In this document: positions 8,066-30,342 of the stretch, one piece after another
Numbering within the stretch: position 1 is the stretch's first letter
Layout of the letters: the number at the start of each line of letters is the position of its first letter
Origin: an uncultured Chitinophagales bacterium
GTDB taxonomy: Bacteria; Bacteroidota; Bacteroidia; Chitinophagales; JAHDHT01
Length of the DNA: 34,459 nt
NCBI GenBank assembly: GCA_938023075.1
Contig: CALHDG010000253.1
Location: 1 to 34,459, forward strand
Direction of reading: 5' to 3'
Made by a program: the position numbers and the translations under genes
The notes under the pieces: model-generated
What the model saw: the letters and a program-made list of their open reading frames with translations, nothing else
Told to the model about the DNA's origin: nothing
Database searches by the model: none

Positions 8066-8708
8066 GGTTTTGAGGTTTTGTATAATGCTGATTATTTATG
8101 TTTTGTTGTAGCATTCTACGTGCTTTTAGTAATTGTGTTTTACTGGTACTTATAGAAATTTGCAAAGATTCTGCAATTTCCCGATGACTATATCCATCAA
8201 TAACAAACATATTAAAGACTGTACGGTAACCTTTGGGTAACTGAGTAATTAGCTGGGTTAACTCTTTTAAACTTAATGCACTAATTGCATTTTCATTAAC
8301 AGGCATTTGAAAAGCTACATCGTTTATATCTTCAGAAAATTTTAAAATATTATTTTTGCGTAGATGCATTAAACACGTATTTACAACTACTTTGTTAGAC
8401 CAAGTGATGTATTTCGATTTTGTGGCATCGTATTGTTTCAAATCTCTGTAAATTAAAATATAAGCGTCTTGTAAAACATCTTCTGCATCAATTTTGTTTT
8501 TTACATAGCGCAAACAAGTTAGCAAATGATTTTTAGCATACCGTTCATACAAAGTTCTGAAAGCTGGTTTACTACCCGATAAAACAGCATGTATAATCTC
8601 TATGTCGGTTTGTTTTGTTTGCAACGCCTGGTTTGTATCTGCAAGTATACCATTTATCTCCTTTTTACTCACTCTTCCCGCCGGTATTGCAATACGCTGT
8701 ATGTTCAA
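8058..8708 (-). CDS. ECF RNA polymerase sigma factor
   Basis: This 216-residue sigma-70 family factor has an extracytoplasmic-function layout. Region 2 spans about residues 36-120, with AFRTLYERYAKNHLL, DAEDVLQDAYILIYRDL and a YITWSNKVVVNTCLMHLRK recognition helix. Region 4 spans about 145-200, with LPKGYRTVFNMFVIDGYSH and REIAESLQISISTSKTQLLK, the promoter -35-binding helix-turn-helix. There is an N-terminal extension of about 35 residues. No internal ATG offers a better start. It is first in an operon with its probable anti-sigma partner (8-nt overlap). The regulon is unknown. The convergent T9SS cargo gene is a plausible partner by position only. Confidence 0.92.
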   Translation of the reverse strand: MNIQRIAIPAGRVSKKEINGILADTNQALQTKQTDIEIIHAVLSGSKPAFRTLYERYAKNHLLTCLRYVKNKIDAEDVLQDAYILIYRDLKQYDATKSKYITWSNKVVVNTCLMHLRKNNILKFSEDINDVAFQMPVNENAISALSLKELTQLITQLPKGYRTVFNMFVIDGYSHREIAESLQISISTSKTQLLKARRMLQQNINNQHYTKPQNHV

Positions 8709-8732
8709 TTGTGATTTAATTTAAAAATCTCG

Positions 8733-8741
8733 CAAATTTTA
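8733..8741 (-). promoter_or_regulatory. Possible promoter of the ECF sigma operon
   Basis: The minus strand reads TAAAATTTG, one base longer than the TAnnTTTG consensus, about 25 nt before the sigma factor ATG. A TTG lies about 18 nt further upstream, inside the small palindrome cttgcaag. The spacing is acceptable but the -7 box is imperfect, so this is a weak call. Confidence 0.3.
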
Positions 8742-8763
8742 TTTTGAGACTTGCAAGATTCTA

Positions 8764-8887
8764 AGGAATGATGAAAAAATAAATTTACCATCTATAATAA
8801 AGCAATTTTTTGATAAACGAAGCATTTCAACCTAGTATATTGAAAAATTGCAAAGTCAGTATGTAAATTTATTTTTTGCTCATTCCT
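8764..8887 (+). repeat. Long-hairpin repeat, copy 1 (short form)
   Basis: The ends aggaatgatgaaaaaataaa and tttattttttgctcattcct are near-perfect inverted terminal repeats of about 25 bp. Further in, gcaatttt (8802-8809) pairs with aaaattgc (8844-8851). The central GTCTTAG-type hairpin present in the other copies is missing, so this copy is ~124 bp. It lies about 55 bp upstream of the sigma factor gene. Confidence 0.85.
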
Positions 8888-8933
8888 AATCTATATAAAA
8901 GGAGAAATTAAATTAATAATAAATTTTACTTTT

Positions 8934-9092
8934 AGGAATAATTCAAAAATAACTGTCCATTTTTACCTTTGAGATTTTCCGATTTACTTCATTAAAAATA
9001 CTCGGCTTAGCACCACTAAGCCTGCGTTTTTTAACTGGTATATCAAAAAATCTCTTTGCCAAAATTTGAACATTTATTTTTTCATCATTCCT
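8934..9092 (-). repeat. Long-hairpin repeat, copy 2 (inverted)
   Basis: Read on the minus strand, this ~159-bp copy begins aggaatgatgaaaaaataaa and aligns along its length with the copy at 9775. The central hairpin is ggcttag (9004-9010), loop cacca, ctaagcc (9016-9022). The next stem is gagatttt (8971-8978) with aaaatctc (9047-9054). Both stems differ in base sequence from the copy at 9775, yet still pair. Confidence 0.85.
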
Positions 9093-9544
9093 TAATATTT
9101 GTTGATACTGTTTCTATTCTGCAAAAATCTAATGTACTTAAGTACTTCTAACTTAAATAGGATTCTTGCTAATTTTTTTACTCTTTGCTATTTTATTTAG
9201 TTAAAAACTAATCCTTAAAAAATTATGTGCGACAGGTTGTTGAAAGGTTGCCTGAACGTTAAATATTTTTTGAATACATTGTATCTCCAATCAATAGTTA
9301 AGTTATTTAGTTGGCTTATATAAATTTCTATTCTAAGCTATTCAATAAAAATTTTTGATAAAACATATGTTAATAATTTATACATTACAACTTAATTAAA
9401 ACAATTTTTTTAAGATAAAAGCGTGTGATAAAAAAAGATATAATTCATAGTAAGTATATTTACTATGCATAAAAATTTATAAACCAATACAAATAAAATG
9501 GGTTAACAAATTTTAAGAATAAAAATCAAAAATCACGAACTAAT
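9093..9544. other. AT-rich gene-free stretch with two small palindromes
   Basis: I see no gene here. The stretch holds a perfect 12-bp palindrome, gtacttaagtac (9134-9145), and a perfect hairpin, catagtaa (9446-9453) with ttactatg (9460-9467) around gtatat. Either could be an operator, but no partner is identifiable. The rest is AT-rich without recognisable signals. Confidence 0.5.
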
Positions 9545-9669
9545 TGACGATAAAATTCGTCTATATAACTGAATGCACGATTATGAAACGGCATTCAAAT
9601 AATAGTTTAGGTTTTTTCATAATGCTAATTGGTTTTGTAGGCAGCCCCGATTTTTCGGGGCTGTTTTTT
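9545..9669 (+). ncRNA. Candidate small RNA ending at a strong terminator
   Basis: The only support is structural. A short hairpin, gacga/tcgtc, lies near 9547-9562, followed ~80 nt later by an excellent intrinsic terminator. No credible gene ends at that terminator: the nearest upstream plus-strand gene is the T9SS pseudogene ending at 6399. Some short transcript must therefore end there. The 5' end and any function are unknown. A small hydrophobic peptide starting at the ATG at 9583 is an alternative, but it would have to read through the terminator. Confidence 0.35.
9642..9669 (+). terminator. Strong intrinsic terminator
   Basis: A perfect GC-rich stem, cagccccg (9642-9649) with cggggctg (9656-9663), closes a six-base loop and is followed by six T (9664-9669). 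It faces the plus strand and insulates the O-antigen ligase-like gene from upstream transcription. Confidence 0.9.
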
Positions 9670-9726
9670 GTTGCGCTCTTTTCGTATTATTCTTTCTTAA
9701 TTGTTTTTATTTTAAATGATCTAATG

Positions 9727-9733
9727 TACTTTG
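9727..9733 (+). promoter_or_regulatory. Possible promoter of the ligase-like gene
   Basis: TACTTTG lies just after the terminator, with a TTG about 24 nt upstream. The box is one base short of TAnnTTTG. If it is used, the transcript would carry the whole hairpin repeat at 9775-9932 in its 5' leader. Confidence 0.3.
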
Positions 9734-9774
9734 TGAGTACATTAATTTTATGATAGTTGCTTCATCTAATTGTT

Positions 9775-9932
9775 AGGAATGATGAAAAAATAAATTTACT
9801 TTTTATGATAAAGCAATTTTTTGATAGACGAGGCGAAAAACGCAGTCTTAGTGGGGCTAAGACAAGGCTTTTCAACGAAGTATATCGGAAAATTGCAAAG
9901 TCAGAATGTAAAGTTATTTTTTTCTCATCCCT
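9775..9932 (+). repeat. Long-hairpin repeat, copy 3
   Basis: This is the full-length 158-bp form. The two ~75-bp arms fold on each other: aggaatgatgaaaaaataaa against the complement of the end ctcatccct, gcaatttt (9813-9820) with aaaattgc (9889-9896), and gtcttag (9845-9851) with ctaagac (9857-9863) around the loop tgggg. It ends 19 bp before the likely ATG of the ligase-like gene. An open frame runs through it by chance into that gene. Confidence 0.9.
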
Positions 9933-9951
9933 TAACAAACTATTCTTGTTT

Positions 9952-11838
9952 ATGGGCTTAGCTTTAATGATAAGTCTGTTAATTTTTAGTTGCGCATTAT
10001 TTCCTCCTAATCAGGTTTTTTATATCGGTATACACGATAGACTTTTGCTTTCAATAGCCGGCATTGTTGGTTATTTTATTTTAAAGTTTTTTATAACCAA
10101 TAAGTGCGTTAAATTCGGTTGGTATGATTGCGTTTTTTTTAGCTTTATTTTCATCACGCTAATTTCGCAGTTTTGGGCACTAAATTCTATAGATGCATTA
10201 AGTGTTACTTTTAGTTGGCTTTTTTACTATTGTGTTTTTAAATTTGTTCAAGATTGGAATGAGCACTCTCCATACAATAAATACTTCTTAACGATACTTC
10301 AAACTATATTAATATTTAATCTATCTATTGTTGTTGGTTATTTAGTCTACAAAGGCTTTTCTTTTGAAAGTTATACCCTTCAATTTAATAATCAGCAAAC
10401 CGATAATCTTACATTCTTACTCAAATCACATAGAAATTATATAGCAACATATTTGATTTTACTAAGCAGTGTAGCTTGGTATTATCTTATAAAAAGTAAA
10501 AAAAATAGTATAAGGATAGTTGGTTTAATGTTTATAGTTTTAACATTTTTAGCCCTTTTACTCATTCGATCTAGAGGTGGCTTGCTCGCGCTAACTTGTC
10601 TGTTTATTCTATATATCTTATTTAGCATGTGGAATATTAAACGCCAAGTGCTAATAAATGCATTTGTTTTATTGGTCAGTAGTTATGTTATTTTTGAATG
10701 GGTAAGTTCTCTTCAGCAAAATGAAAGCACTTACCTGTATTTAATAGACCCATTGTACGGAGTAAAAAGTACTGGAGGGGACGAACGATTGCGCTTATGG
10801 AGAACTACTTTTCAACTTTTTTTAGAAAAACCAATTTGGGGACATGGAAGCGGTAGTTGGATGTATGAATACATGAAATATGGTGTTGGGGATTTTAGAC
10901 AAATAGATTATACAGATGATTACTTTAAAACCACTCATAATGTATTTTTAAATATATTGTTTTGCAACGGCATCATAGGCATCACTTTGTTTTTGTATTT
11001 AATGGTAGGTTTTCCTGTTTATAAATGCTATAAAAACTTTACTTTAAATACAAACATGCTTGTTAGCCTAATTGCATTAATTGGTGTGTTAATTATGATG
11101 CAATTTTATGGAGATTTTGACATTAGAGGTGGTGTTGTAGGAGGAGCACCAATGATGCTTTTTATATTGATCGGCATAATAATTAAACAAGAAAACAATA
11201 TAATTAACTTTAAAATATCAAACCTGTTAATAACCGTAATGGGTATAGGTATAATTTTCTATTACTTAAGCATTAAGGCAAACATGTCAAATTATCGTAT
11301 TTTTAATAAAATGTTAGTTATGGAAAACTATGAAAGCTGTAAAAATATATTAAATGATTTTGATGAAAGCGTTATACAATTTAGTCACCTTGGTGTTACA
11401 GAACATTATTTAAATTATCAAATAATGGAAAAATTGCAATATAGAAACCAAGCCGTTGAGCATTTAGAAAAACAACTCAATCTACACCCCTACAGTTTCA
11501 GCCTGTGGTATCAACTTGGGGTAGAAAATCAGCGGCAGAATTATTTAGATAAAGCCATTAATTGTTTTGAAAAGGCGCTCCTTTATAATTGCGATTATGT
11601 AAGAGCCAAAGTTCGTTTATATTGTGTGCATACCTTACTCGGTAATCAAGAGCAAGCCAAAAAATATAAAAATGAATTTTATATAATGAAATATTATTTG
11701 AAACGGTATCAAGCCAACGAAAAAATATGGAAAAATTTTCCGAAAGCAGTACGCAAAAAAAGACATTACCGGTGGCAATTAAACCTAGTCAACAAGTTTC
11801 ACCGGAAACATGGTATTGATATTGACATCTTAAAATAA
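9952..11838 (+). CDS. O-antigen ligase/polymerase family membrane protein with TPRs
   Basis: From the ATG at 9952 this is a 628-residue polytopic membrane protein. A longer frame opens at 9757, but its extra 65 residues are almost all encoded by the hairpin repeat, so I reject that start. About ten hydrophobic segments fill the first ~440 residues. The Wzy_C/WaaL-type signature is visible: SHRNYIATYLILL, then RSRGGLLAL, the periplasmic-loop segment WGHGSGSWMYEY and THNVFLNILFCNGIIG. The C-terminal ~130 residues contain TPR-like helices (AVEHLEKQLNLHPYSFSLWY and LDKAINCFEKALLYN). The family transfers or polymerises lipid-linked glycans at the periplasmic face, but the glycan substrate cannot be inferred. 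No other polysaccharide genes are nearby. The gene is flanked on both sides by hairpin repeats in the same orientation. Confidence 0.82.
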   Translation: MGLALMISLLIFSCALFPPNQVFYIGIHDRLLLSIAGIVGYFILKFFITNKCVKFGWYDCVFFSFIFITLISQFWALNSIDALSVTFSWLFYYCVFKFVQDWNEHSPYNKYFLTILQTILIFNLSIVVGYLVYKGFSFESYTLQFNNQQTDNLTFLLKSHRNYIATYLILLSSVAWYYLIKSKKNSIRIVGLMFIVLTFLALLLIRSRGGLLALTCLFILYILFSMWNIKRQVLINAFVLLVSSYVIFEWVSSLQQNESTYLYLIDPLYGVKSTGGDERLRLWRTTFQLFLEKPIWGHGSGSWMYEYMKYGVGDFRQIDYTDDYFKTTHNVFLNILFCNGIIGITLFLYLMVGFPVYKCYKNFTLNTNMLVSLIALIGVLIMMQFYGDFDIRGGVVGGAPMMLFILIGIIIKQENNIINFKISNLLITVMGIGIIFYYLSIKANMSNYRIFNKMLVMENYESCKNILNDFDESVIQFSHLGVTEHYLNYQIMEKLQYRNQAVEHLEKQLNLHPYSFSLWYQLGVENQRQNYLDKAINCFEKALLYNCDYVRAKVRLYCVHTLLGNQEQAKKYKNEFYIMKYYLKRYQANEKIWKNFPKAVRKKRHYRWQLNLVNKFHRKHGIDIDILK

Positions 11839-11868
11839 CAACCAATTTTTTTTTGTTAATACATTATA

Positions 11869-12026
11869 GTAAGGCGGAGAAAATAAACCTACTTTTTATG
11901 TCAAGTCATTTTTTGATAGACGAGGCGAAAAACATAGTCATAGTGGGGAACTAAGACGAGGCTTTTCAACGAAGTATATCGAAAAATGGCAAAGACAGAA
12001 ATGAAGATTTATTTTTGTAGCATTAC
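11869..12026 (+). repeat. Long-hairpin repeat, copy 4 (diverged)
   Basis: This copy is in the same orientation as the one at 9775 and shares tttttgatagacgaggcgaa and gcttttcaacgaagtatatc with it. The terminal repeats and the central hairpin (gtcatag versus ctaagac) have drifted. The middle stem is gtcatttt (11905-11912) with aaaatggc (11983-11990), a third version of this pairing, with one U-G wobble. It starts ~30 bp after the ligase-like gene. Confidence 0.8.
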
Positions 12027-12087
12027 ATAGCTATTAGGGCATTACTTTTTGTTATCAAATTATGTACATTTACACAAAACAAAAACC

Positions 12088-13533
12088 ATGAAATCAAATA
12101 TTATCATACTCATTTTGCTGCTGTTTAGCATAAGCCTTCGCGCTCAAATTCCAACTACTAATGAGGAAGATGAAAAAGTAGTGCGCAGTATTTTTGATGA
12201 ATCGTTAATTGACGGACGTTGCTACGAACGTTTAAGAACCTTATGTAAAGATATTGGTCCACGATTGAGTGGATCGGTTGGAGCCATAAGAGCAGTAGAA
12301 TGGGCAGTTCAGGAAATGGAACAGCTTGGTTTTGATACAGTATATAAACAAGCCTGCATGGTACCACATTGGGAGCGTGGCGAAAAAGAATATGTTGCCG
12401 CACACAGCGCATCTATGGAAAAACCTTTACAATTAAAAGCATGCGCTTTAGGCTATTCATTAGGTACACCGCCCGAAGGCATTAAAGGAAAAATTGTTAA
12501 GGTAACCGGTTTAGAAGAGGTGGAAGCCATGACACCCAATGAGCTGAAAGGCAAAATAGTGTATTACAGTCGCCCGATGGACCCAACTCATATCCAAACT
12601 TTTCATGCCTATGGCGGTTGTGTAGACCAACGTTCGCGCGGTGGCATTACCGCACAAAAAAAAGGAGCCATTGGAGTAATTGTACGCTCTATGGGTTTGC
12701 GTATTGACGATTATCCGCATACCGGCACAATGGATTATGGGGGCGAATTGCCCGACATTCCTTCTTGCGCCATTAGCACCAAAGCTTCTGAAGATTTAAA
12801 TGCTTTATTAGAAAAAGATCCGGACGTTGAATTAGAAATGCGGATGAATTGCCGTCGTTTAGAAGATAAATTATCGTACAATGTAATTGGTGAAGTTTGG
12901 GGAAGCGAACATCCTGATGAATACATAGTAGTTGGTGGACATTTAGATTGCTGGGATAATGCCGAAGGGGCACATGATGATGGAGCGGGCGTCGTTCAAT
13001 CCATTGAAGTATTGCATTTGTTTAAAACTTTAGGCTTGAAAAATAAACATACTTTACGGGCTGTATTATTTATGAATGAAGAAAATGGTACCAGAGGTGC
13101 CAGAAAATATGCCGAAGAAGCCAAAACAAAAAACGAAAAGCACGTAGTAGCTATTGAATCAGATTCTGGTGGTTTTGTGCCTAGAGGTTTTAATGTGGAT
13201 GGCACCGATGAAGCCGTACCTCAAATGCTCAAACAAATAGGCGGTTGGGAAGCCTTGTTAGAGCCCTACAATCTGCATCGTTACAAAAAAGGCTTTGGTG
13301 GAGTAGACATTAATTTCTTAAAAGATCAACAAGTTCCGTTGGTAGGCTTTTATCCCGATCCGCAACGCTATTTTGATATTCACCATACCGAATTAGATGT
13401 TTTTGAACAAATTAATAGAAGAGAGTTGGTTTTGGGAGCCGCTTCAATAGCCTCCTTAGTTTATTTAATTGATACCTATGGTTTCGGTTTTACACCGGCT
13501 TATAAGGCAGTAGAGAAAGTGCCAAAAGGTTAG
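12088..13533 (+). CDS. M28 family metallopeptidase with PA domain
   Basis: I start at the ATG at 12088, which gives a clean signal peptide (MKSNIIILILLLFSISLRAQ). The frame also offers an upstream start at 12049 that would put 13 polar residues before it. The mature protein of about 460 residues has a protease-associated (PA) insert around residues 110-250, followed by the M28 zinc peptidase core. Visible ligands are His285 in GGHLDCWD, Asp297 in EGAHDDGAG, the Glu331-Glu332 pair in FMNEENGTRGA, Asp359 in IESDSGG and the His in DIHHTELD (432-433). The organisation resembles carboxypeptidase Q-type aminopeptidases/carboxypeptidases, so it probably trims peptides in the periplasm or outside the cell. 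All catalytic positions are intact. It is apparently monocistronic. Confidence 0.92.
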   Translation: MKSNIIILILLLFSISLRAQIPTTNEEDEKVVRSIFDESLIDGRCYERLRTLCKDIGPRLSGSVGAIRAVEWAVQEMEQLGFDTVYKQACMVPHWERGEKEYVAAHSASMEKPLQLKACALGYSLGTPPEGIKGKIVKVTGLEEVEAMTPNELKGKIVYYSRPMDPTHIQTFHAYGGCVDQRSRGGITAQKKGAIGVIVRSMGLRIDDYPHTGTMDYGGELPDIPSCAISTKASEDLNALLEKDPDVELEMRMNCRRLEDKLSYNVIGEVWGSEHPDEYIVVGGHLDCWDNAEGAHDDGAGVVQSIEVLHLFKTLGLKNKHTLRAVLFMNEENGTRGARKYAEEAKTKNEKHVVAIESDSGGFVPRGFNVDGTDEAVPQMLKQIGGWEALLEPYNLHRYKKGFGGVDINFLKDQQVPLVGFYPDPQRYFDIHHTELDVFEQINRRELVLGAASIASLVYLIDTYGFGFTPAYKAVEKVPKG

Positions 13534-17318: not shown

Positions 17319-18578
17319 ATGGCAACAATGATAGATATTTTTAAACTTAGCATAAGTAAACTACTACTGCTAACTACCTGTCTTTTTCTACTCAATGTCA
17401 ATGTTTTTAGTCAAGATGAACTAATTAAGCAAGGCGAATCTATATTTAAAGCCAACTGCGCCAGTTGCCACTATGTTACCAACAAACGGATGACAGGACC
17501 AGGCTTAGCAGGTGCCGTTCAACGTTGGGAAGAAAACGCGTCCATCGAAAAATTATACGAATGGATTAGAAATTCACAAGCCGTTATAAGATCCGGTGAT
17601 GTACCTTACGCCAACAAACTGTATGAAGAGTACAACAAATCGGTGATGACGGCATTTGCTCTTAGCGATGATGATATTAGTGCCGTTTTACTTTATATAG
17701 AAAACCCACCAGTTGAAGTAGGTAAAGATCCTGGCGATGACGAAATGGTAGAGACAAAAGCTTTATCCTGGTCCGATCCATCGGTAATTTTTATGGTGGT
17801 GGTATCTATTATTTTAGCCGCCATTGGTTTTTTGCTGAGCCGTTTAATTGGCAATTTGCGGCGTATGTCGTATCAGGCAAAAGGTTTGCCGGTACCCGAG
17901 CGGGTGCCAATAGTAAGAAGATTAACGGATAAACGTTTTCTAGCGGCAGCTTCAATTTTATTGGTAATCTTTTTAGCAGTTTCAGCTTTTGATGTAACTA
18001 CCAATATGGGTAGACAACAAAATTATCAACCCACTCAACCCATTGCCTTTTCGCACAAATTGCACGCGGGCATTAATGGCGTTGATTGCCAGTATTGCCA
18101 CAGCGGTGCGCGTAAGGGTAAGTCGGCTGTTATTCCATCAGCTAATGTTTGTATGAATTGCCATAAGGCAATAGAAGAAGGACCAGAATACGGCAAAACA
18201 GAAATTGCAAAAATTTATGAAGCCGTTGATTGGGATCCGGAAACACAAACCTATGGCGACAATCCGAAACCCATTGAATGGGTACGTATACATAACCTTC
18301 CAGATCATGTTTATTTTAATCATGCTCAACACGTTAATGTAGGTGGTGTAGAATGTCAAACTTGCCACGGACCTATAGAAGAAATGGAAAAAGTATACCA
18401 ACACGAAACCTTAGGCATGGGTTGGTGTATTGATTGTCATAGAGAAACGGAAGTGCAATTTGCTGCTAACGATTATTATCAAATATATGAACAGCTTCAC
18501 AAAGATTTGAAAGAAGAAGGAAAGAAAGTGACAGTGGAGGATATTGGTGGCACAGAGTGTCAAAAGTGTCATTATTAA
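17319..18578 (+). CDS. actA: ACIII subunit ActA, multiheme cytochrome c (six CxxCH)
   Basis: This is the multiheme c subunit of Alternative Complex III, the menaquinol:cytochrome c/oxidase oxidoreductase that replaces the bc1 complex. In its 419 residues I see a signal peptide (1-31), then a class I monoheme cytochrome c domain with CASCHY (C47-H51) and a candidate Met110 ligand. Two TM helices lie at about 155-175 and 207-224. The pentaheme domain has CxxCH motifs at 257, 278, 346, 370 and 414. The classical pentaheme ActA has five, so the N-terminal domain adds a sixth. The last motif is at the very C-terminus. ActA receives electrons from the ActB Fe-S clusters. It is the first gene after the promoter and lies 31 bp before actB. 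The ATG four codons in is an equally possible start. Confidence 0.95.
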   Translation: MATMIDIFKLSISKLLLLTTCLFLLNVNVFSQDELIKQGESIFKANCASCHYVTNKRMTGPGLAGAVQRWEENASIEKLYEWIRNSQAVIRSGDVPYANKLYEEYNKSVMTAFALSDDDISAVLLYIENPPVEVGKDPGDDEMVETKALSWSDPSVIFMVVVSIILAAIGFLLSRLIGNLRRMSYQAKGLPVPERVPIVRRLTDKRFLAAASILLVIFLAVSAFDVTTNMGRQQNYQPTQPIAFSHKLHAGINGVDCQYCHSGARKGKSAVIPSANVCMNCHKAIEEGPEYGKTEIAKIYEAVDWDPETQTYGDNPKPIEWVRIHNLPDHVYFNHAQHVNVGGVECQTCHGPIEEMEKVYQHETLGMGWCIDCHRETEVQFAANDYYQIYEQLHKDLKEEGKKVTVEDIGGTECQKCHY

Positions 18579-18609
18579 TCAAAATAAATAAAACGATTTA
18601 AAGCTGAAT

Positions 18610-21600
18610 ATGGCTAATAGAAAGTTTTGGCAAAGCTACGAAGAGTATACCAACGACCCGGAATACGTAGAAAAGAAACATAACGAATTTGCAGAAAAAT
18701 TGCCGTTCGCTTCATTTGAATTGGCAACGCAAAAAAGTACACCTCGTCGTGATTTTTTGAAAATGTTGGGTTTTAGTGTTTCAGCTGCAGCAATTGCTGC
18801 CAGTTGCGAACAACCTATCCGCAAAGCCATTCCCTACGTTATTCAACCAGAAGAAATTACGCCCGGTGTGGCTAACTATTATGCGTCTTCATTTATTAAT
18901 GGAAATGATTACAGCAGCATCTTAGTAAAAACCAGAGAAGGCAGACCGATCAAGATTGAAGGGAATCCCAACTCATCCATGTCGCCAAATGGTGGTACAG
19001 ATGCAAGGGCGCAAACTTCGGTAATTAGTCTATATGATAATGCACGTTTAAAAAATCCAAAAATTAATGGAGAAGTTACCACTTGGGAAGAAATAGACCG
19101 AGTTGTTGGTGGTGATTTAAGAGAGATAGCCAGACAAGGCAAAAAAATTGTACTGCTAAGTTCAAACATCGTTAGTCCTACTACCAAAAAGTTGATTAAC
19201 GAATTTGGGGCAACGCTCGGCAATTTTGAACACGTGAGTTACGAACCTATTTCGTATGCCGGCATAATCGAAGCCAATAAAAAATCTTTTGGCAAAAATA
19301 TTATTCCATCTTACGATTTTAGTAAAGCCAATATGATTGTTGGTTTTGAAGCTGATTTTTTAAGTACATGGTTATCGCCCAATGAATTTTTAGGTCAATA
19401 TTCTAAAGCAAGAAAAATTAGCCGTAAAAACACCAAAATGGCTAAGCATGTTCAGTTTGAATCATTAATGACCAATACCGGCAGTAATGCAGACGAACGG
19501 TATATAGTAAAGCCTGCTTACTTGCCAATGGCGGTTGGTGCTTTATACAATGCGATTGCGGCTAAATCAGGTGCAGCTTCTTTATCAGGTAATTTTAACA
19601 TTGGTTTAGATACCAATACAATTAATAAAACTGCCAGACAACTTTGGAATAACAGAGGGGCTTCGCTAGTAGTTAGTGGTTCAAACGACCCCAATGTACA
19701 AGTGTTGATTAATGGAATCAATAATATGTTGGGCAACTATGGCTCAACTATTGATTTGAATAAACCATATAACATTGGTAACAGCAGCGATGAAGCCTTC
19801 CAACGCTTAATAGCTGAAATGGATAGAGGACAAATTCACGGTTTATTAATATACAATACTAATCCAGCATATTCTTACTTTAATACTGCCCGTTTTGCAG
19901 AAGCTATAAAAAAAGTAGTCGTTACCGCTTCTTTTAATGATAGAGAAGATGAAACCGCATCTTTAGTAAAATTCTTTTTACCAGATAATCATTATTTAGA
20001 AAGTTGGAATGATGCGGAACCGAAAAAAGGTACTTTTAGTTTAGCGCAACCTTGCATTCGTCCTTTATTTAATACACGCCAGTTTCAAGATACTTTGTTA
20101 AGTTGGATGGGCAAAGATGAAAGTTTTTATGATTATTTAAAAGCAAATTGGACGAAGAGCATTACCGGTAACTGGGATAAAGCCTTACACGATGGTGTGT
20201 ATGAAGGAAAAGTAAAAAGTGCAGAAATTAATTATGCCGATACTGGTGGAGGAAATTTGGCTGCTTCGGCAACCAGCGCTGCATCAGCTATCATTCGTAA
20301 GGCAACTGGCATTGGCGACCAATTAGAATTGGTTTTGTATCAAGGTTTAATTGGTGATGGAAAATATGCGAATAATCCATTTTTACAAGAAATTCCAGAT
20401 CCGGTTACCAAAGTCGTTTGGGAGAATTGTTTACTAATTTCAAAAGCCACAGCAGAGGCATCTGGTTTTATAGAAGGAGACTTATTTAGAATTAGTGCAA
20501 GAGGTAATGCTTTAGAGTTGCCTTTATTATATCAACCCGGTATGGCTGATAATACCTTGGCAGTTGCTATGGGTTACGGCAGAACAAACGCAGGTTCAGA
20601 TAATTGTAATAAAGGAGCTAATGTATATCCATTAGTAAGTTATAATGAAGCCAATAAAACCTTTGATTACAACATTAAAGGTGAAGAATTTAAATTAGCC
20701 CGTATTGGTGGTACGCAAGCAATTGCTCGTACACAAATGCATCATAATATTAATGATTATTTGGCTGATTCAAATGAACCCAGTCAATACGATAGAAAAG
20801 AACAGTTGGTGCGTGAGGCTACCTTAGCGGAATATAAAGAAGACCATTGGGCAGGTAATGCTATTGGTAAAAAATTTAGAGACCCGCATTTCTGGGATCA
20901 TCATATGGTTACTTTATATGATAAAAGACCAGAACTAAAAGAAGGGCATCATTGGGGAATGGCGGTTGATTTAACGGCATGCACCGGATGTAATGCTTGT
21001 GTTGCGGCTTGTAATATTGAAAACAATGTGCCGGTTGTAGGTAAAGAAGAGGTATTTAGAGCGCACGAAATGCATTGGTTGAGAATTGACCGCTATTATA
21101 TTGGTAAAGATGACAATCCTTCGGTGGCTTACCAACCGATGATGTGCCAAATGTGTGACAATGCACCTTGCGAAAATGTTTGTCCGGTTTCGGCAACCAA
21201 CCATAGTGCCGAAGGTTTAAACCAAATGGCATATAACCGTTGCATTGGTACAAGATATTGCGCGAACAACTGTCCGTTTAAAGTACGTCGTTTTAACTGG
21301 TTCGATTATCAGGGAGCGGATTCGTTTATAGCTAAAACTGCTTTTGATAATGATGAAAATGTAACCTTAGCTGACGATTTAAGCCGCATGGTTTTAAACC
21401 CCGATGTTACCGTTCGTTCAAGAGGGGTGATGGAAAAATGTAGTTTCTGTGTACAACGTATTCAAACAGGCAAACTAGATGCGAAAAAAGAAGGTAGAGC
21501 CTTAGAAGAAAATGATATTAAAACGGCTTGCCAACAGGCTTGTTCTGCAGGTGCTATTACCTTTGGTGATATGAATGATAAAAACAGCAGAGCATTTAAA

Positions 21601-21720
21601 TTGACGAAGTTAGATGAACGTTCTTATGGTTTATTAGAAGAACTGCACGTATTACCTTCGGTGAAATATTTAACTAAAATTAGAAATACAGAGCAGCTTC
21701 AGCAAGATGCGCTCTCATAA
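18610..21720 (+). CDS. actB: ACIII subunit ActB, Fe-S / molybdopterin-like protein
   Basis: This 1036-residue protein is the large periplasmic subunit of ACIII. A twin-arginine motif STPRRDFLKMLGFS (about 44-57) leads to a hydrophobic stretch and Cys66 in AIAASCEQ. This suggests Tat export and lipid anchoring, as reported for ActB of other Bacteroidota. Residues ~70-780 resemble the molybdopterin oxidoreductase fold, which in ACIII binds no cofactor. The C-terminal ferredoxin-like domain (~780-1010) holds the four Fe-S cluster motifs: CTGCNACVAAC, CQMCDNAPCENVC, CIGTRYCANNC and CSFCVQRI with CQQAC. These pass electrons from the quinol site in ActC toward the hemes of ActA. The length and all Cys motifs are normal. 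Confidence 0.96.
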   Translation: MANRKFWQSYEEYTNDPEYVEKKHNEFAEKLPFASFELATQKSTPRRDFLKMLGFSVSAAAIAASCEQPIRKAIPYVIQPEEITPGVANYYASSFINGNDYSSILVKTREGRPIKIEGNPNSSMSPNGGTDARAQTSVISLYDNARLKNPKINGEVTTWEEIDRVVGGDLREIARQGKKIVLLSSNIVSPTTKKLINEFGATLGNFEHVSYEPISYAGIIEANKKSFGKNIIPSYDFSKANMIVGFEADFLSTWLSPNEFLGQYSKARKISRKNTKMAKHVQFESLMTNTGSNADERYIVKPAYLPMAVGALYNAIAAKSGAASLSGNFNIGLDTNTINKTARQLWNNRGASLVVSGSNDPNVQVLINGINNMLGNYGSTIDLNKPYNIGNSSDEAFQRLIAEMDRGQIHGLLIYNTNPAYSYFNTARFAEAIKKVVVTASFNDREDETASLVKFFLPDNHYLESWNDAEPKKGTFSLAQPCIRPLFNTRQFQDTLLSWMGKDESFYDYLKANWTKSITGNWDKALHDGVYEGKVKSAEINYADTGGGNLAASATSAASAIIRKATGIGDQLELVLYQGLIGDGKYANNPFLQEIPDPVTKVVWENCLLISKATAEASGFIEGDLFRISARGNALELPLLYQPGMADNTLAVAMGYGRTNAGSDNCNKGANVYPLVSYNEANKTFDYNIKGEEFKLARIGGTQAIARTQMHHNINDYLADSNEPSQYDRKEQLVREATLAEYKEDHWAGNAIGKKFRDPHFWDHHMVTLYDKRPELKEGHHWGMAVDLTACTGCNACVAACNIENNVPVVGKEEVFRAHEMHWLRIDRYYIGKDDNPSVAYQPMMCQMCDNAPCENVCPVSATNHSAEGLNQMAYNRCIGTRYCANNCPFKVRRFNWFDYQGADSFIAKTAFDNDENVTLADDLSRMVLNPDVTVRSRGVMEKCSFCVQRIQTGKLDAKKEGRALEENDIKTACQQACSAGAITFGDMNDKNSRAFKLTKLDERSYGLLEELHVLPSVKYLTKIRNTEQLQQDALS

Positions 21721-21739
21721 AATATAAATTAAAAAAAGA

Positions 21740-23281
21740 ATGGGTCATAATTACTCATCACCATTAAGAGAACCGCTGGTTACCGGTAATAAATCGTATC
21801 ACGATGTTACCGAAGATATATGCAAGCCAACCGAAACAAAGGGAACCCCAATGTGGTGGTTGGTTACCGGTATTGCTTTCTTTTTTGTTATTATCTATAT
21901 TATATCAGTAATAGCAACGGTTTGGAAGGGTATTGGCATGTGGGGCTTAAACAAAACCGTCGGTTGGGCTTGGGATATCACCAATTTTGTTTGGTGGGTT
22001 GGTATTGGTCACGCCGGTACCTTAATCTCGGCTATCTTACTCTTATTCCGCCAAAAATGGAGAACCGGGGTAAACCGCGCCGCAGAAGCAATGACGATTT
22101 TTGCCGTTATCTGTGCCGGGCAGTTTCCTTTAATACATATGGGTAGAATCTGGTACGGTTTCTTCATCTTTCCATATCCCAACACAAGAGGAGGGGAGGG
22201 AATCAGCAGTTTGTGGCCCAACTTCAATTCGCCCTTATTGTGGGATGTTTTTGCGATCTCTACTTATTTAACCGTATCGTTATTATTCTGGTATTCAGGC
22301 TTAGTTCCTGATTTTGCCACAATAAGAGATCGGGCAAAAGGCTGGCGTAAAAAAATATACAATGTACTGGCTTTTGGTTGGCAAGGTAAAGCTAAGCAAT
22401 GGCAACGTTTCGAATCTTTATCGCTGGTATTGGCAGGTTTAGCCACACCCTTGGTACTTTCGGTACACACTATTGTTTCGTTCGACTTTGCTACTTCGGT
22501 TATACCGGGTTGGCATACTACCATCTTTCCACCATACTTCGTTTCTGGAGCAATTTTCTCTGGTTTCGCTATGGTATTAACCTTAATGTTAATTGTAAGA
22601 AAGGTGCTGAAATTAGAAGATTACATAACGCTTGCCCATATCGAATCGATGAATAAGGTAATCATCTTAACCGGTTCAATAGTCGGTATAGCTTATATTA
22701 CAGAATTGTTTGTTGCCTGGTATTCGGGTAACCCTTATGAGCAATGGGCTTTCTTAAGAAACAGAATTGCCGATCCTTGGATTTTTGGTCCTTTGCTTGG
22801 TGTAGAAGAAGGGCAACACGCACCTTACTGGTGGGCATATTGGGCTATGATGACTTGTAACGTAATTTCTCCTCAACTTTTTTGGATTAGAAAATTGCGT
22901 AGAAGCATCGCCTTTACCTTCTTTATGTCTATAGTAATTAACATTGGTATGTGGTTCGAGCGATTTGTAATTATTGTAACTTCTTTACATAGAGATTTCT
23001 TACCCTCAAGCTGGTCGTATTATTCACCAACTATAGTAGAGGTGGGTATTTTTACTGGAACTTTAGGGGTGTTCTTCTTCTTGTTCTTGTTGTTTGCCAA
23101 ATTCTTCCCGGTGGTAGCTATCGCGGAAGTGAAGTCGATTTTAAAAACTTCAGGCGACCAATATGTATCTGATTTCAAAGAAAAAGATGAGCAATTCTTA
23201 GAAAAGGTATCGAAAAGAGAATTAATATTTGAAAACGGAAAGTCGGGTGGACTGGTTCCTAATCCAACTTTTAAAAAATAA
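21740..23281 (+). CDS. actC: ACIII subunit ActC, NrfD-like quinol-oxidising subunit
   Basis: This 513-residue integral membrane protein of the NrfD/PsrC family has about ten TM helices and is the main menaquinol-binding subunit of ACIII. Candidate quinol-site residues are His133 in FPLIHMGR and Asp169 in SPLLWDVF. A further polar cluster lies in [13 protein letters not shown]. The N-terminal ~35 residues are soluble and contact the neighbouring subunits, and the C-terminal ~50 residues are a charged tail. It lies 19 bp after actB and 3 bp before actD, consistent with co-translation. The sequence shows no lesion. In the complex it is paired with the structurally related ActF. Confidence 0.96.
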
Positions 23282-23284
23282 ATT

Positions 23285-23830
23285 ATGGCTAAAACATTTG
23301 TAGTCGCATTATATAAAGATGAGGAAGTTTTAATGAAAGCAGTAAAACACATTAAAACTGCCGGCGTTAAAATTACCGATGCCTTAACACCATTTCCGGT
23401 GCACGGCTTAGATGAAGCCATTGATGTACCTGAAACCCGTTTGCATACCGCAGGCTTTTTGTTTGGCTTGTTGGGTTTTTTAACTGCCTTAACTTGCATG
23501 ACTTTAATCAGCACGGTTGATTGGCCCATTAATTATGGTGGGAAACCCAATTTTTCGTTGCCGGCATTTATACCCATTACTTTTGAGGTTACGGTTTTGT
23601 TTGCATCGGTAGGTATGGTAATTACTTATTTTTTAAGAAATGGCTTATCAATATTTAACAGCACCGAAGTAATTGATGAAAGAATTACCGACGACCATTT
23701 TGCGCTGTTATTTGACGCAACAGAATTTACTGATGAAGGAATGGCAAAAGTAAATAATATTTTACAAGAATCGGGGGCAGTTGAAGTGAATATGAGAACC
23801 ATGGAAAAATACAAAAATTTAAACAGATAA
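23285..23830 (+). CDS. actD: ACIII subunit ActD (DUF3341)
   Basis: This 181-residue DUF3341 protein is the small ACIII subunit. It has a cytoplasmic N-terminal domain with TFVVALYKDEEVLMKAVKHI and TPFPVHGLDEAI. Two TM helices follow, at about 57-80 (GFLFGLLGFLTALTCMTLIS) and 97-118 (FIPITFEVTVLFASVGMVI). The cytoplasmic C-terminal domain includes DDHFALLFDATEF, which resembles a ferredoxin-like repeat. The role is structural: it caps ActC and ActF on the cytoplasmic side. The length is typical. It lies between actC (3 bp) and actE (20 bp). Confidence 0.94.
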   Translation: MAKTFVVALYKDEEVLMKAVKHIKTAGVKITDALTPFPVHGLDEAIDVPETRLHTAGFLFGLLGFLTALTCMTLISTVDWPINYGGKPNFSLPAFIPITFEVTVLFASVGMVITYFLRNGLSIFNSTEVIDERITDDHFALLFDATEFTDEGMAKVNNILQESGAVEVNMRTMEKYKNLNR

Positions 23831-23850
23831 TAAAGAAAGGATTTAGAGCT

Positions 23851-25257
23851 ATGCGCTTTGTAATATATATAATAAGTGTTGTTTCGTTAATAATAGCAGG
23901 TTGTGGGGCTGCCGGTGATTATACAGGTATAGAATATATGCCTGATATGAAACATAGCCGTGCAATGGAAACCTACACACCAAGTACGGTTTTTGCTGAT
24001 GGTAAAACTGCCCAATTGCCCGCTGAAGGAACAATTGCTTCGGGTTTTATGCCCTATAATTACGAAAATACGAACGAAGAATATGAAAGAGCAGGAAGAG
24101 AAGTTTTTAGCCCTTTCAATAATATTGAACATCAAAATGCTGTAGAAGAAGGCAAAAAATTATACAACATTTACTGTGCGGTATGCCACGGTAAAGGCGG
24201 TAAAGCTAACGGAACCCTTATTGAAAATGGAAAATATCCACCTCCCCCTTCTTATTTTAGAGAAGATATTTTACGTTTACCTGAGGGCAAAATGTTTCAC
24301 AGTGTTACCCATGGAAAAAATTTGATGGGTGGCTATGCTACTCAATTAAACCAAGAAGAACGGTGGAAGGTGATCTCTTACATTAGAGATATGCAAGTAA
24401 AACACATTGTAAAAGAAGAAAAGATTTCTGAAGAAGCCGCTTTACAACAAATTTTTAAAGGTTCAGGCTATATTAGTAAAGCGCAGGCAGCCGCTATGGA
24501 AGTAGCACGGGTAAAAGAGGAAGCCGCCAAGATAGATGATGAATATGCCGGCTTAAAATCTTTAGAGGAGTTGTTGGCAGAACATCATGCACATGGAGGT
24601 GACCATGGGCACGGAGGTGGACATGGTGGGCACGACGATGATCATCATGGCACTAAAGCAGGAAATAAGAGTGATGATCACAGCCACGACCATGATCATG
24701 GAACACATAAAGAAGGTCACCACCATGATGCCGACCATCAGCAAGAAGAACATCAAGATGAAAGCCACCTGAATGAACATAAAAATAGTATTAAAGAAGC
24801 CATAAGCTCAACGGCTGCTCAAATGGTTGATAAAGTTGAAGATGCAGGCGATGCCGTTAGTTCAAAAATGGCAAAAGAGTTTAAAGGTTTAGGCGATGCG
24901 TTAGATATACAAAGCGGTCAAACTTTTGTATTGAACAATGTTTTGTTCGCTACCAGTAAATCTACCCTAAAAAAATCATCTATACCCGAGTTGAAGCAAT
25001 TAAATGAAATATTATCCAACAACCTCAATTTAAGAATTGAGCTAAGGGGGCATACCGATAGTATGGGAAAAGATGATATTAATATGGAACTATCTCAGGC
25101 AAGAGCGCAAGAAGTTGCGAACTATTTAATTAAAGAATTGAAAGTTTCAGCCGAAAGAATTGAAACCAAAGGTTTTGGTGAGTCGCAGCCTGTTGCCCCT
25201 AACGATACACCCGAAGGAAGACAAAAAAACAGAAGAACAGAAGTAAAGTTTCTATAA
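23851..25257 (+). CDS. actE: ActE cytochrome c fused to a His-rich linker and OmpA domain
   Basis: This 468-residue lipoprotein has three parts. Residues 1-18 form a signal peptide with lipobox IAGC (Cys18). The monoheme cytochrome c domain (~95-185) has CAVCH at 109-113 and a likely Met159 ligand in GKNLMGGYA, and is the ActE module of ACIII. A helical segment follows, then a very His/Asp/Gly-rich stretch at about 245-310 (for example HDDDHH, DHSHDHDHG, EGHHHDADHQ). Residues ~355-468 form an OmpA-type peptidoglycan-binding domain with RGHTDSMGKDD, LSQARAQEV, GFGESQPVAPND and RRTEVKF. Asp403 and Arg418 match the diaminopimelate-binding pair. Ordinary ActE is only the cytochrome part (~200 residues). 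The fusion would tie the complex to the cell wall, and the linker may bind metal. Both roles are inferences. Confidence 0.92.
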   Translation: MRFVIYIISVVSLIIAGCGAAGDYTGIEYMPDMKHSRAMETYTPSTVFADGKTAQLPAEGTIASGFMPYNYENTNEEYERAGREVFSPFNNIEHQNAVEEGKKLYNIYCAVCHGKGGKANGTLIENGKYPPPPSYFREDILRLPEGKMFHSVTHGKNLMGGYATQLNQEERWKVISYIRDMQVKHIVKEEKISEEAALQQIFKGSGYISKAQAAAMEVARVKEEAAKIDDEYAGLKSLEELLAEHHAHGGDHGHGGGHGGHDDDHHGTKAGNKSDDHSHDHDHGTHKEGHHHDADHQQEEHQDESHLNEHKNSIKEAISSTAAQMVDKVEDAGDAVSSKMAKEFKGLGDALDIQSGQTFVLNNVLFATSKSTLKKSSIPELKQLNEILSNNLNLRIELRGHTDSMGKDDINMELSQARAQEVANYLIKELKVSAERIETKGFGESQPVAPNDTPEGRQKNRRTEVKFL

Positions 25258-25261
25258 TTAC

Positions 25262-26449
25262 ATGAATCAGAATTTTATTTTACCGGATAAATTAAGAAAT
25301 ATTTTCTTTGGCGTTCTTGGCGCAGGAGTATTATTCTTAATCATTGGCATGATTGGTGCTTGGGGCAATCCTTCACGCATTTTTACAGCTTTGTTATATA
25401 ATTCTTTTTTCTTTCTCGGAATTAGCATAATCGGCTTGTTTTTTTGTGCCGTACACGAAATTGGTTTTGGTGGTTGGATGATTTCTGTAAAACGAATTGC
25501 CGAAGCCATGAGTACTTTTGTGCCGGTGGCAGGCATCATTTTACTAGTTACCGTGTTAATTGGTATGCACGATATTTACCATTGGACACATAGCGAATTA
25601 TACGATATAAATGGAGATCAATACGATGCTTTACTCGCCAAAAAAACCAGCTTCTTAAATGCCGGCTTTTTCTCAGTCCGTTCAATTATTTATATTGCCT
25701 TGTGGATTGGACTAGTAATTTGGTTTAGAAGAAATTCATTAGCCTTAGATAAAACAGGCTCAATTGAAACCTATCGTAAAAGCAAAATGATCAGTGCTAT
25801 ATTTTTGGTTGTTTTTGCAGTAACCAGTTCTACTTGTACTTGGGATTGGCTAATGTCAATTGATCCACATTGGTACAGTACTTTATATGGCTGGTATTGT
25901 TTTGCTTCTATATTCGTTTCAGGCTTATGCACTATTGCTTTAATTGCAATGGGTTTAAAAAGTATGGGTTATTTAGAATATGTAAACAAAGAGCACATAC
26001 ATGACTTGGGTAAAATGATATTTGGATTTAGCATTTTCTGGACTTACCTTTGGTTTAGCCAGTTTATGTTAATTTGGTATGGTAATATTCCGGAAGAGAC
26101 TTTATATTTCTACCAACGCTTTAATGGTGGATATAAGTTTGTTTTCTTTTTGGTATTGTTTATCAATTTTGTATTTCCATTTTTCACTTTAATAACTGCT
26201 GGTGCTAAAAGAACATTTGGAGTAATGCTATTTGCTTGCCCTGTAATATTGTTAGGGCATTGGTTAGATTTTTATGTGTTAACCATGCCAGGTGCAGTAA
26301 AGGAAAGCAACGGAATAATTTTAGAATTAGGAATAGCCTTATGTTATACCGGAGGTTTTTTGTTGTGGGTTTTCTGGCAATTACAAAAAGCACCCTTACT
26401 TCAAACTACCCATCCATTTGTTCAAGAAAGTTTATATCATCATACATAA
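25262..26449 (+). CDS. actF: ACIII subunit ActF, second NrfD-like membrane subunit
   Basis: This 395-residue polytopic protein has about ten TM helices and is the pseudo-symmetric partner of ActC in ACIII, often annotated as quinone-binding subunit 2. Visible segments include IGMIGAWGNPSRIFTALLYN, WMISVKRIAEAMSTFVPVAG, IYHWTHSELYD, the SSTCTWDWLMSIDPHWYSTL motif and LLGHWLDFYVLTMPG. It binds no heme or Fe-S cluster. The family is thought to contribute to proton movement or stability. It starts 4 bp after actE and lies 14 bp before coxB. Confidence 0.93.
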   Translation: MNQNFILPDKLRNIFFGVLGAGVLFLIIGMIGAWGNPSRIFTALLYNSFFFLGISIIGLFFCAVHEIGFGGWMISVKRIAEAMSTFVPVAGIILLVTVLIGMHDIYHWTHSELYDINGDQYDALLAKKTSFLNAGFFSVRSIIYIALWIGLVIWFRRNSLALDKTGSIETYRKSKMISAIFLVVFAVTSSTCTWDWLMSIDPHWYSTLYGWYCFASIFVSGLCTIALIAMGLKSMGYLEYVNKEHIHDLGKMIFGFSIFWTYLWFSQFMLIWYGNIPEETLYFYQRFNGGYKFVFFLVLFINFVFPFFTLITAGAKRTFGVMLFACPVILLGHWLDFYVLTMPGAVKESNGIILELGIALCYTGGFLLWVFWQLQKAPLLQTTHPFVQESLYHHT

Positions 26450-26463
26450 AAAATAATAAATAA

Positions 26464-27504
26464 ATGACAGGTTTATTAGGCTTACTAATTGTTGCGTTGA
26501 TTATTTGGATAATTTTTTTGTTATCTAAAGCCAACGAGTTTGTGTCTGATATAAAAGGAGAAGAAAATGCCGAAGACAGCTCTAACCGCTTTAATGCGTT
26601 AATGTGTTTAGCATTTTTAATTTTGGGTATGATAGGCTTCGCGTGGAGCGTATTTCATTATGCCCCTATGTTTTTGCCACCACCCGCATCTGAACATGGT
26701 GCTTGGATTCGGCAAATGTTTCAAGTATCAACAGTGCCTATTGTAATTGTGTTTTTTATTACACACGTAATGTTGTTTTGGTTTGCCTACCGGTATCAAT
26801 ACAAAAAAACAAACCGGGCAGTACACTTTGCACATTCAACCAAATTAGAAATTATTTGGACAGCCATACCCGCTGTGGTTATGGTAATACTAGTGGCTAT
26901 TGGTTTAGTTAATTGGTTTAAAATATTTGATGACCCACCGGCAGAATCATTAGTGGTTGAAGCAACCGGTCAGCAATTTTTGTGGCATTTGCGCTACTCA
27001 GGCGAAGATAATGTACTAGGCAGCAAATCAGTTTATGATATCAGTTCAGATAATCCTTTTGGTATGGATTGGGAAGACCAAGCCGGTTTAGATGATTTTA
27101 AGTCGGATACACTGATGATGCAATTGAATCAACCCATCTTAGTAAAAATAAATTCTTTAGATGTGTTGCATAGTTTTTACTTGCCACATTTTAGAGTTAA
27201 AATGGATGCAGTGCCAGGCATACCCACCCAATTTTGGTTTATACCAACTAAAACAACCCAAGAAGCCAGAGATGAAAGAGATGACCAGAAATTTAACTTT
27301 GAATTAGCATGTGCCGAATTATGTGGTGCTTCGCATTTTAATATGAGAAGAGTAGTAAAGGTTTTAGAAGAAGAAGATTTTAAAGCATGGAAAGCAAGAC
27401 AAGTACCCATTTATACCGATTTGGGTATAGAAAAAAAATTAAAGGAAGCTGAAAAAGCAAACAACGAAAATAATCAATTAAAAGGGGAGACGGTCGGCAT
27501 ATAA
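26464..27504 (+). CDS. coxB: Cytochrome c oxidase subunit II
   Basis: This 346-residue subunit carries the CuA electron entry site of the terminal oxidase. Hydrophobic helices lie at about 3-20, 44-64, 91-109 and 130-150, the last two being the canonical pair. The cupredoxin domain follows. CuA ligands are His236 in DVLHSF and Cys283, Glu285, Cys287, His291 and Met294 in CAELCGASHFNM. There is no fused cytochrome c domain, so this is not a caa3-type subunit II, and electrons must come from a separate c heme such as that of ActA or ActE. The ~35-residue C-terminal tail is Lys/Glu/Asn-rich. It lies directly between actF and coxA. Confidence 0.96.
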   Translation: MTGLLGLLIVALIIWIIFLLSKANEFVSDIKGEENAEDSSNRFNALMCLAFLILGMIGFAWSVFHYAPMFLPPPASEHGAWIRQMFQVSTVPIVIVFFITHVMLFWFAYRYQYKKTNRAVHFAHSTKLEIIWTAIPAVVMVILVAIGLVNWFKIFDDPPAESLVVEATGQQFLWHLRYSGEDNVLGSKSVYDISSDNPFGMDWEDQAGLDDFKSDTLMMQLNQPILVKINSLDVLHSFYLPHFRVKMDAVPGIPTQFWFIPTKTTQEARDERDDQKFNFELACAELCGASHFNMRRVVKVLEEEDFKAWKARQVPIYTDLGIEKKLKEAEKANNENNQLKGETVGI

Positions 27505-27540
27505 TGTTGACGAATGTAATTATATTTTAAAAGAAAAATT

Positions 27541-29409: not shown

Positions 29410-29434
29410 AAAAAGAACATAAACATCAATAGCT

Positions 29435-30340
29435 TTGAAAAATACAATCGCAATACAAAATAGTTGGTTTAGTGCTGTACAAGCTAAAATAAACGATTAT
29501 TGTCAATTGTTTAAGTTGAAGTTAAACCTCGTTGTAGTTTTTTCGGCAGTAGTGGGTTATGTACTCGCTGCAGGATCGGCTTTTGCTTTGGTAGATTTGC
29601 TGATGTTGATTTTGGGTGGCTTTTTAATTACTTCATCGGCAAATGCTATTAATGAAGTGTTAGAAGTAGATTACGATAAATTAATGAAGCGCACCAAAGT
29701 TCGTCCGCTGCCTTCTGGTAGAATGAAAAGCAACGAAGCCATTCTGGCTGCCGGATTAACCGGATTGGCAGGCTTGTGGTTATTTGGTTTGTACTTTAAT
29801 ATAATGGCGGCTTTTGTTGCCGGGCTTTCCCTTATATCTTACGCATTTATCTATACACCTTTAAAACGAATTTCTCCAATAGCTGTTTTTGTTGGAGCAA
29901 TTCCAGGAGCTTTACCACCCGTAATTGGTTGGATTGCCTTTACCGGAAGCCTTACCATTGAACCCATTTTATTATTTGCGGTTCAATTTTTCTGGCAGTT
30001 TCCACACTTTTGGGCAATAGGCTGGTTAGGTCACGATGAGTATGTAAAAGCCGGTTTTAAAATGTTGCCTTCTAAAAAAGGAAAAGATAAACAAACTGCT
30101 TTTCAAAGCATAGTGTATGCTTTAGTATTAATACCGCTTGCTATATTTGGTACTATGTATGGGGTAGGGTATAGGCTTACCATTTTAATGTCGGTAGTTG
30201 CCGGTATTTTGTATGTGTTGCCTGCCATTCGCTTATACAAAACCTGTGAAGACAAAGCAGCCTTAAAGCTGATGTTTGCTTCCTTTTTATATTTACCCTT
30301 AATGCAAATTAGTTGGATCATCGATAAATTTTGGATTTAA
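29435..30340 (+). CDS. ctaB: Protoheme IX farnesyltransferase (heme O synthase)
   Basis: This 301-residue UbiA-family prenyltransferase with about nine TM helices farnesylates protoheme IX to heme O, the precursor of heme A for CoxA. The first metal-binding motif is NEVLEVDYDKLMKRTKVRP (N-x3-E/D-x3-D type), with the RP-L-P-SGR extension. The second active-site loop is WLGHDEYVKAGFKMLPSKKG. No ATG lies near the N-terminus, and the start appears to be TTG at 29435 (TTGAAAAATACA), giving a normal soluble N-terminal segment before the first helix. The stop is 2 bp before the next gene. A heme A synthase (CtaA) gene is not in the window. Confidence 0.95.
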   Translation: MKNTIAIQNSWFSAVQAKINDYCQLFKLKLNLVVVFSAVVGYVLAAGSAFALVDLLMLILGGFLITSSANAINEVLEVDYDKLMKRTKVRPLPSGRMKSNEAILAAGLTGLAGLWLFGLYFNIMAAFVAGLSLISYAFIYTPLKRISPIAVFVGAIPGALPPVIGWIAFTGSLTIEPILLFAVQFFWQFPHFWAIGWLGHDEYVKAGFKMLPSKKGKDKQTAFQSIVYALVLIPLAIFGTMYGVGYRLTILMSVVAGILYVLPAIRLYKTCEDKAALKLMFASFLYLPLMQISWIIDKFWI

Positions 30341-30342
30341 GT

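Follow-up and report, generated by a model that had tools for sequence, protein, structure and literature searches.

Hairpin-forming mobile repeats of the Chitinophagales with a conserved tip module and a fold that appears to be kept in spreading lineages

The stretch of DNA analysed here (hereafter the window; 34,459 nt, contig CALHDG010000253.1 of assembly GCA_938023075.1, C253 in our coordinates) belongs to the 6.12-Mb, 288-contig genome of an uncultured Chitinophagales bacterium and carries four members of a family of long-hairpin repeats. These elements are mobile and resemble miniature inverted-repeat transposable elements (MITEs): they are short, encode no transposase, end in terminal inverted repeats and, the property on which the likeness chiefly rests, most carry 3-bp target-site duplications. 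On balance, we favor the interpretation that they are non-autonomous MITEs whose spread requires one strand of the entire element to be folded. In the mechanism we propose, resident insertion sequences (ISs) would supply the DDE transposases that move the elements in trans, and the targets would be TA or TWA, often within C-TWA-G, with duplication of 2-3 bp. One particular strand would have to fold for spreading to continue, because its pairing, with wobbles tolerated, is kept in spreading lineages while landed copies decay. The folded strand, RNA or single-stranded DNA, would act as an intermediate or as a cis-acting aid to mobilization; a protein would probably hold it at a tip module described below, and folding may, for instance, bring the two ends together.

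As a preliminary description of the window had proposed, copies were collected across the genome with a covariance model. This model, R1, was built from 32 element copies and matched all 150 scored candidates (of 7945 loose first-look candidates) at E ≤1.8e-13, 145 of them over all 158 positions. Since no more than 40, 150 or 24 candidates were scored per genome, copy numbers here are minima, and the family in the window's genome comprises about 150 or more copies. After duplicate removal we retained 157, of which 153 have both flanks. Four subfamilies hold 39, 36, 31 and 27 copies, with 20 others, and the mean distance within a subfamily is 0.07-0.10; the consensuses of the four have different ends and middle stems and also diverge close to the tip, and still the arms pair in each. 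Element length is 124-165 nt and the inverted terminal arms measure 25-28 nt. The end pattern gave 140+144 matches genome-wide, compared with 2+0 for the reversed pattern. Just outside the GGAAT...ATTCC termini the 3-bp flanks are identical in 114 of 153 copies, 96 of these being TTA or TAA, whereas randomly re-paired flanks were identical in a mean of 43 and a maximum of 58 copies over 200 trials. The base most frequent before the duplication is C, and that after it is G.

The copies are intergenic: at a 100-amino-acid setting an open reading frame (ORF) spans one of the 157, 32 of which could not be assessed. This placement bears on the idea of an in-gene, in-frame palindromic element like those of Rickettsia, which would account for the +0 frame (the best frame) being open in 50 out of 149 copies; in the third window element this frame runs through into the next gene. 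Stops break the frame in the other 99 copies, and we regard such an origin as extremely improbable; a coding role was rejected on these stops together with the intergenic placement. Nested and tandem copies exist, and 11 stretches around end matches outside all known copies proved to contain further copies, nested copies, deleted forms of 56 and 71 nt, and broken halves. In the two deleted forms (L204:1978-2033, 56 nt; L202:1935-2005, 71 nt) both ends are kept and the middle, with the tip, is internally deleted, and the copy at L142:842-918 combines an arm of the SF3 subfamily with one of SF1, as if the two had recombined. In genome G075, equal-scoring copies lie at the starts of several contigs (positions 16-98); the repeat thus seems to break assemblies, and counts from draft genomes are probably too low.

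The hairpin tip has approximately the sequence GACRAGGC-AAAAAC-RYAG-(stem-loop)-CGAG-NNTTTT-NAACGMAGTA. We interpret its fold as two 3x3 internal loops, CGAGG facing CGNAG in opposite orientation, that flank a short A/T stem, and the hairpin stem below it extends to the element ends. Leaving the terminal loop aside, the tip has 21 unpaired positions; over 62 sequences, 14 of them are conserved at 87-100% and the other seven at 47-77%. The tip strands CGAAG and CGCAG are of the form C-GNA-G, which we take to be an unusually stable mini-hairpin loop in DNA and which would fit a role as single-stranded DNA. Asymmetric loops are also fixed in young, near-identical copies.

A model of the 77-nt tip, R2, found matches in 35 of 198 genomes of the order, the window's own included (21 of 21 on re-search), and none in the remaining 163; in a sample of the phylum, 5 of 395 genomes had matches, all five in this order. 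BLAST against 59 genomes yielded, besides the own genome, two weak partial matches, one of 29 nt in G025 and one from a different family of the order, where the tip of the hairpin sits on a wholly different stem with wholly different ends. The same holds more broadly between genomes, in which ends and stems differ yet pair: the printed foldings of relatives are hairpins of ~160 nt or longer with differing stems and, in most, a similar tip, a few (L176, L184, L199) being worn or ending early. Among the matches listed from a 21-nt pattern scan, hosts were mostly Saprospiraceae, Chitinophagales and unplaced metagenome-assembled genomes (MAGs) of Bacteroidetes. Membranihabitans marinus is among the hosts (G056, its identity being inferred), with 204 end matches. 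Of eight scan matches outside the Bacteroidetes or in Mucilaginibacter that were put to the model, seven (L247, L256, L262, L266, L267, L290, L291) fail at E 0.01 and were taken as chance. The eighth (L321:5389-5464; 47.7 bits), which lies in a MAG of a Clostridia member sampled from the colon of roe deer, does pass E 0.01; its best fold is not one simple hairpin, its outer arms look alike by eye, and it represents either a misbinned contig, spread beyond the phylum, or chance. An 81-nt tip from the closed genome G172 had no match in plasmid and phage collections.

Covariation in the tip was scored on 66 R2 matches (alignment A5), three of which are weak extra readings (two on the opposite strand, one a second place in L183) and one of which is incomplete; these four were left out of the 62-sequence loop analysis above. 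Paired cells made up 92.0% (67.2% after shuffling), changes on both sides were seen in 24 of 25 pairs, and the covariation score was 0.607, against 0.155 for shuffled data and 0.060-0.100 with partners slid by 1-3 columns. Because A5 was fitted to the model, its pair counts lean toward structure, and we therefore counted mismatches outside the 77-nt model, in 38 representatives from 32 genomes (five genomes give two or three; L199 is aligned over 13 nt only). There, 88 GU pairs stand against 22 AC pairs, where composition predicts 1.34 to 1; GU is in excess in 31 representatives and AC in four, with three ties. The excess is present in the inner stem (9 to 2) and the end zone (74 to 14) and absent beyond the elements, which served as a control (5 to 6). 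As a GU on one strand is an AC on the other, the excess means that only one strand is favored. Same-direction mismatches are skewed as well (AG over CT 52 to 14; GG over CC 16 to 3), in agreement with folding of the favored strand, and RNA and DNA fit these data alike.

The landed copies behave differently. Within the four subfamilies, changes away from Watson-Crick pairs comprise 136 GU and 132 AC, and singleton changes 45 GU and 44 AC, whereas the four consensuses taken together show 24 GU and 6 AC. The singleton rate is 0.021 in the unpaired tip, 0.013-0.016 in paired zones and 0.007 at unpaired end sites (3 mutations at 14 sites). Landed copies thus look neutral, and the tip is unprotected in them. 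The absence of bias there, set beside the GU excess in the consensuses, indicates that it is the spreading lineages that keep the fold, and the same contrast speaks against strand-biased deamination or a similar mutational origin. One repeat family would then be under two selection regimes, with none detected on landed copies and a strong one on the spreading lineage. The preliminary description had held that the folded form is maintained beyond what inheritance would leave; the covariation score, the GU excess and its split by zone bear this out for the spreading lineage, but the claim does not extend to resident copies.

Template switching can correct imperfect palindromes, and the elements could accordingly be ordinary MITEs in which the palindrome is a relic, repaired arm from arm, with functionless paired changes. 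Transposase binding alone would keep the two ends alike under such a scheme. Repair has no strand preference, however, yet GU exceeds AC by 4 to 1 with the end zone included, and neither the conservation of loops across families nor the fixed asymmetric loops of young copies would be explained; we consider a repaired relic distinctly unlikely.

A structured RNA useful to the host, through protein binding or control of neighboring mRNAs, and merely spread by MITE ends would account for strand-specific pairing and for conserved loops that resemble protein-bound RNA. It would also fit the orientation of own-genome copies between tandem genes, which lie in the sense direction in 46 cases and antisense in 20. 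This bias is absent elsewhere (16 to 17; 71 copies at 65 loci in other genomes), which lowers the probability of a host-RNA role without excluding it. Landed copies, moreover, accumulate changes about as fast in the tip loops as in the stems and show no preference for GU over AC, and most genomes of the order, as noted, have no match. For genomes that have just one or two matches, the eight loci compared adjoin different ORFs and share nothing obvious when the ORF lists are read by eye, and a syntenic host gene was rejected on this basis. Overall, a host RNA appears rather unlikely to be the explanation. Rfam 15 families resemble the hairpins in having covarying stems and conserved loops, but 12 loci taken from other genomes stay below every family's threshold, and the five weak matches in window positions 8400-12400 are all far below threshold.

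Returning to elements moved in trans, a candidate mobilizer comes from G172. Eleven near-identical aligned hairpins in this closed genome end in TATACCCG...CGGGTATA, read as TA sites, and the end pattern has 55 matches there against one for the reversed pattern. Besides hairpins, it marks seven pairs of ends 1112 bp apart and one pair 3.7 kb apart. The seven 1112-bp copies are of equal length, with 0-10 differences, and encode a 351-amino-acid protein with DDE_3 and HTH_33 domains that is an IS630 transposase by NCBIfam NF033545 (192.9 bits; cut-off 100). Hairpin and IS630 element have ~25 terminal bases in common, beyond which the outermost 70 bases at either end show no evident similarity, and TA is found at both ends of the 11 hairpins and of eight IS copies, where it was read as the target duplication. 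Judged from these sequences, the IS630-family element is likely the mobilizer of the G172 hairpins. In the window's genome the duplication is of 3 bp, mostly TWA, and not the 2-bp TA of the IS630 type; with three rather than two bases duplicated, its enzyme is probably a different one. As partners there we tried DDE_Tnp_4 (one match, a fragment) and DDE_Tnp_1 (seven matches) and rejected both, as they have no end motif at ≤4 mismatches in the stretches examined.

The preliminary description had suggested recognition of the hairpin by a transposase or a RAYT-like enzyme; the G172 element supports the former in kind, in one relative, and the latter fares poorly. In a REPIN-like system the elements would be moved as single-stranded DNA by a RAYT (Y1) transposase, and REPINs too form hairpins with compensatory changes, according to the portions of PMC3116915 consulted. 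At the level of presence in a genome, however, Y1 (PF01797) is not associated with the elements, being found in 27 of 35 element-bearing genomes and 153 of 198 genomes overall, the same share, so the proposed linked RAYT gene is not borne out. One 98%-complete genome that has 27 element matches yielded no Y1 domain. Target duplications are present, and in G172 the ends are common with those of an IS630 element and insertions show no replication-strand bias (15 of 25; strand inferred from 20 sampled stretches). The lack of strand bias lowers the probability of an IS200-like single-strand route, and we consider a REPIN-like origin very unlikely.

Several observations weigh against our preferred reading, in which a DDE transposase moves an element that must fold, and the missing strand bias is one of them. 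The eight DDE_Tnp loci of the window's own genome lack an end motif, as said, and a search of that genome, covering ~100 of 284 end matches, found no transposase with matching ends. In Membranihabitans no pair of hairpin and IS ends was seen among the matches listed, which leaves the IS link with one relative, G172. How a folded strand would benefit a DDE transposase is something that we infer. In 18 older unclustered copies GU and AC are equal (94 and 96), which fits decay and is equally expected without constraint, and the sense preference between tandem genes could hint at an RNA or host effect.

Bacterial MITEs such as ERIC, NEMIS/Correia and RUP resemble the present family: they are ~160 bp long, end in inverted repeats, carry short target duplications, lie mostly between genes and are predicted to form hairpins. 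In known MITEs the ends are the conserved part, whereas here the center is conserved across bacterial families and the ends are not, and the covariation is strand-specific. What is new is a MITE with a fixed center and free ends, and we found no description of this hairpin family in the open-licence literature searched. MITE transcripts form stable stem-loops, as stated in a review (PMC10969869) in whose searchable portion the terms IS630, Bacteroid and compensatory do not occur. REPINs with their RAYTs share high copy number, hairpins with compensatory changes and selection on the replicating unit (PMC3116915). They keep their ends, however, while the spacer varies, and they depend on an enzyme of the Y1 type; the present family does the reverse, has target duplications and is paired with a DDE-type enzyme. 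CGTC-tagged REPs are likewise palindromic and short, have no transposase dedicated to them and are reported from several phyla, Bacteroidetes included, but they measure 20-40 bp rather than ~160 nt, and no two-loop tip module is described in the sections of PMC3733652 consulted.

A bolder possibility, which we advance tentatively and rate as less probable than its negation, is that the folded tip module, as a conserved structure of single-stranded RNA or DNA, is the real selfish unit and has outlasted the divergence of families while the ends switched transposases, with a TA-duplicating IS630 enzyme in one relative and a TWA-duplicating enzyme in the window's genome and Membranihabitans. Were this true, it would define a class of MITE by its center and place a folded intermediate in DDE transposition; need of a folded strand would in itself add to small-element cut-and-paste a step that standard accounts do not include. 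With its abundance, a cultured host and, in a relative, a probable partner transposase, the family is directly testable. It also carries a caution, in that intergenic repeats of bacteria may covary strongly without being host RNA genes.

All four window elements lie where the preliminary description had placed them, save that the last was off by one base, and each folds better than all of its 200 dinucleotide shuffles, none of which equaled it. The end motif AGGAATGATGAAAAAATAAA has four window matches at ≤3 mismatches, against 0.03 expected, and identical 3-bp flanks surround every element. Element 1 (8764-8887, plus strand, 124 nt; R1 105.9 bits; fold z -6.8) matches R1 as do the others, but it is an internally deleted copy whose tip module is gone, so that the four are related without all being full hairpins; its duplication is TAA (8762-8764 and 8887-8889). 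Element 2 (8934-9092, minus strand; R1 136 bits; z -8.8) is a full-length hairpin of subfamily SF1, the same copy as L001:660-818 of the SF1 cluster, with its tip module at 8985-9040 on the minus strand (from motif positions and alignment A1) and TTA at 8932-8934 and 9092-9094. Element 3 (9775-9932, plus strand; R1 188.6 bits; z -6.1) is full-length and SF3-like; its tip module (GACGAGGC ... AACGAAGTA) occupies 9827-9882 on the plus strand by motif positions, within R2 match C253:9816-9892, and TTA is found at 9773-9775 and 9932-9934. Element 4 (R1 match 11868-12027, plus strand; 147.8 bits; z -6.4) is full-length with SF14-like ends (AGTAAGGC ... GCATTACA), a tip module at 11919-11976 on the plus strand by motif positions, and ATA at 11866-11868 and 12027-12029. 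The compensatory stem changes named earlier are all present: gcaa/ttgc, gaga/tctc and gtca/tggc in the middle stem, gtcttag/ctaagac and ggcttag/ctaagcc in the apical stem, and tttac/gtaaa and tgttc/ggaca near the ends.

A domain scan of five proteins neighboring the window elements returned Wzy_C, Peptidase_M28, sigma-70, YjbR and one protein without a match, and the earlier statement that no nearby protein explains the elements holds for these five. The Wzy_C (O-antigen-ligase-like) frame, at 9757-11838 on the plus strand, is open upstream through all of element 3, and the start of this gene may be annotated inside the mobile element. An intrinsic-terminator-like sequence (gcagccccgatttttcggggctgttttttgtt) lies at 9640-9675, and no ORF of at least 80 amino acids occurs between 8708 and 9757. 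Farther along, at 17319-31700, a long gene run reads, from the list of ORFs, like an operon for alternative complex III and a caa3-type oxidase.

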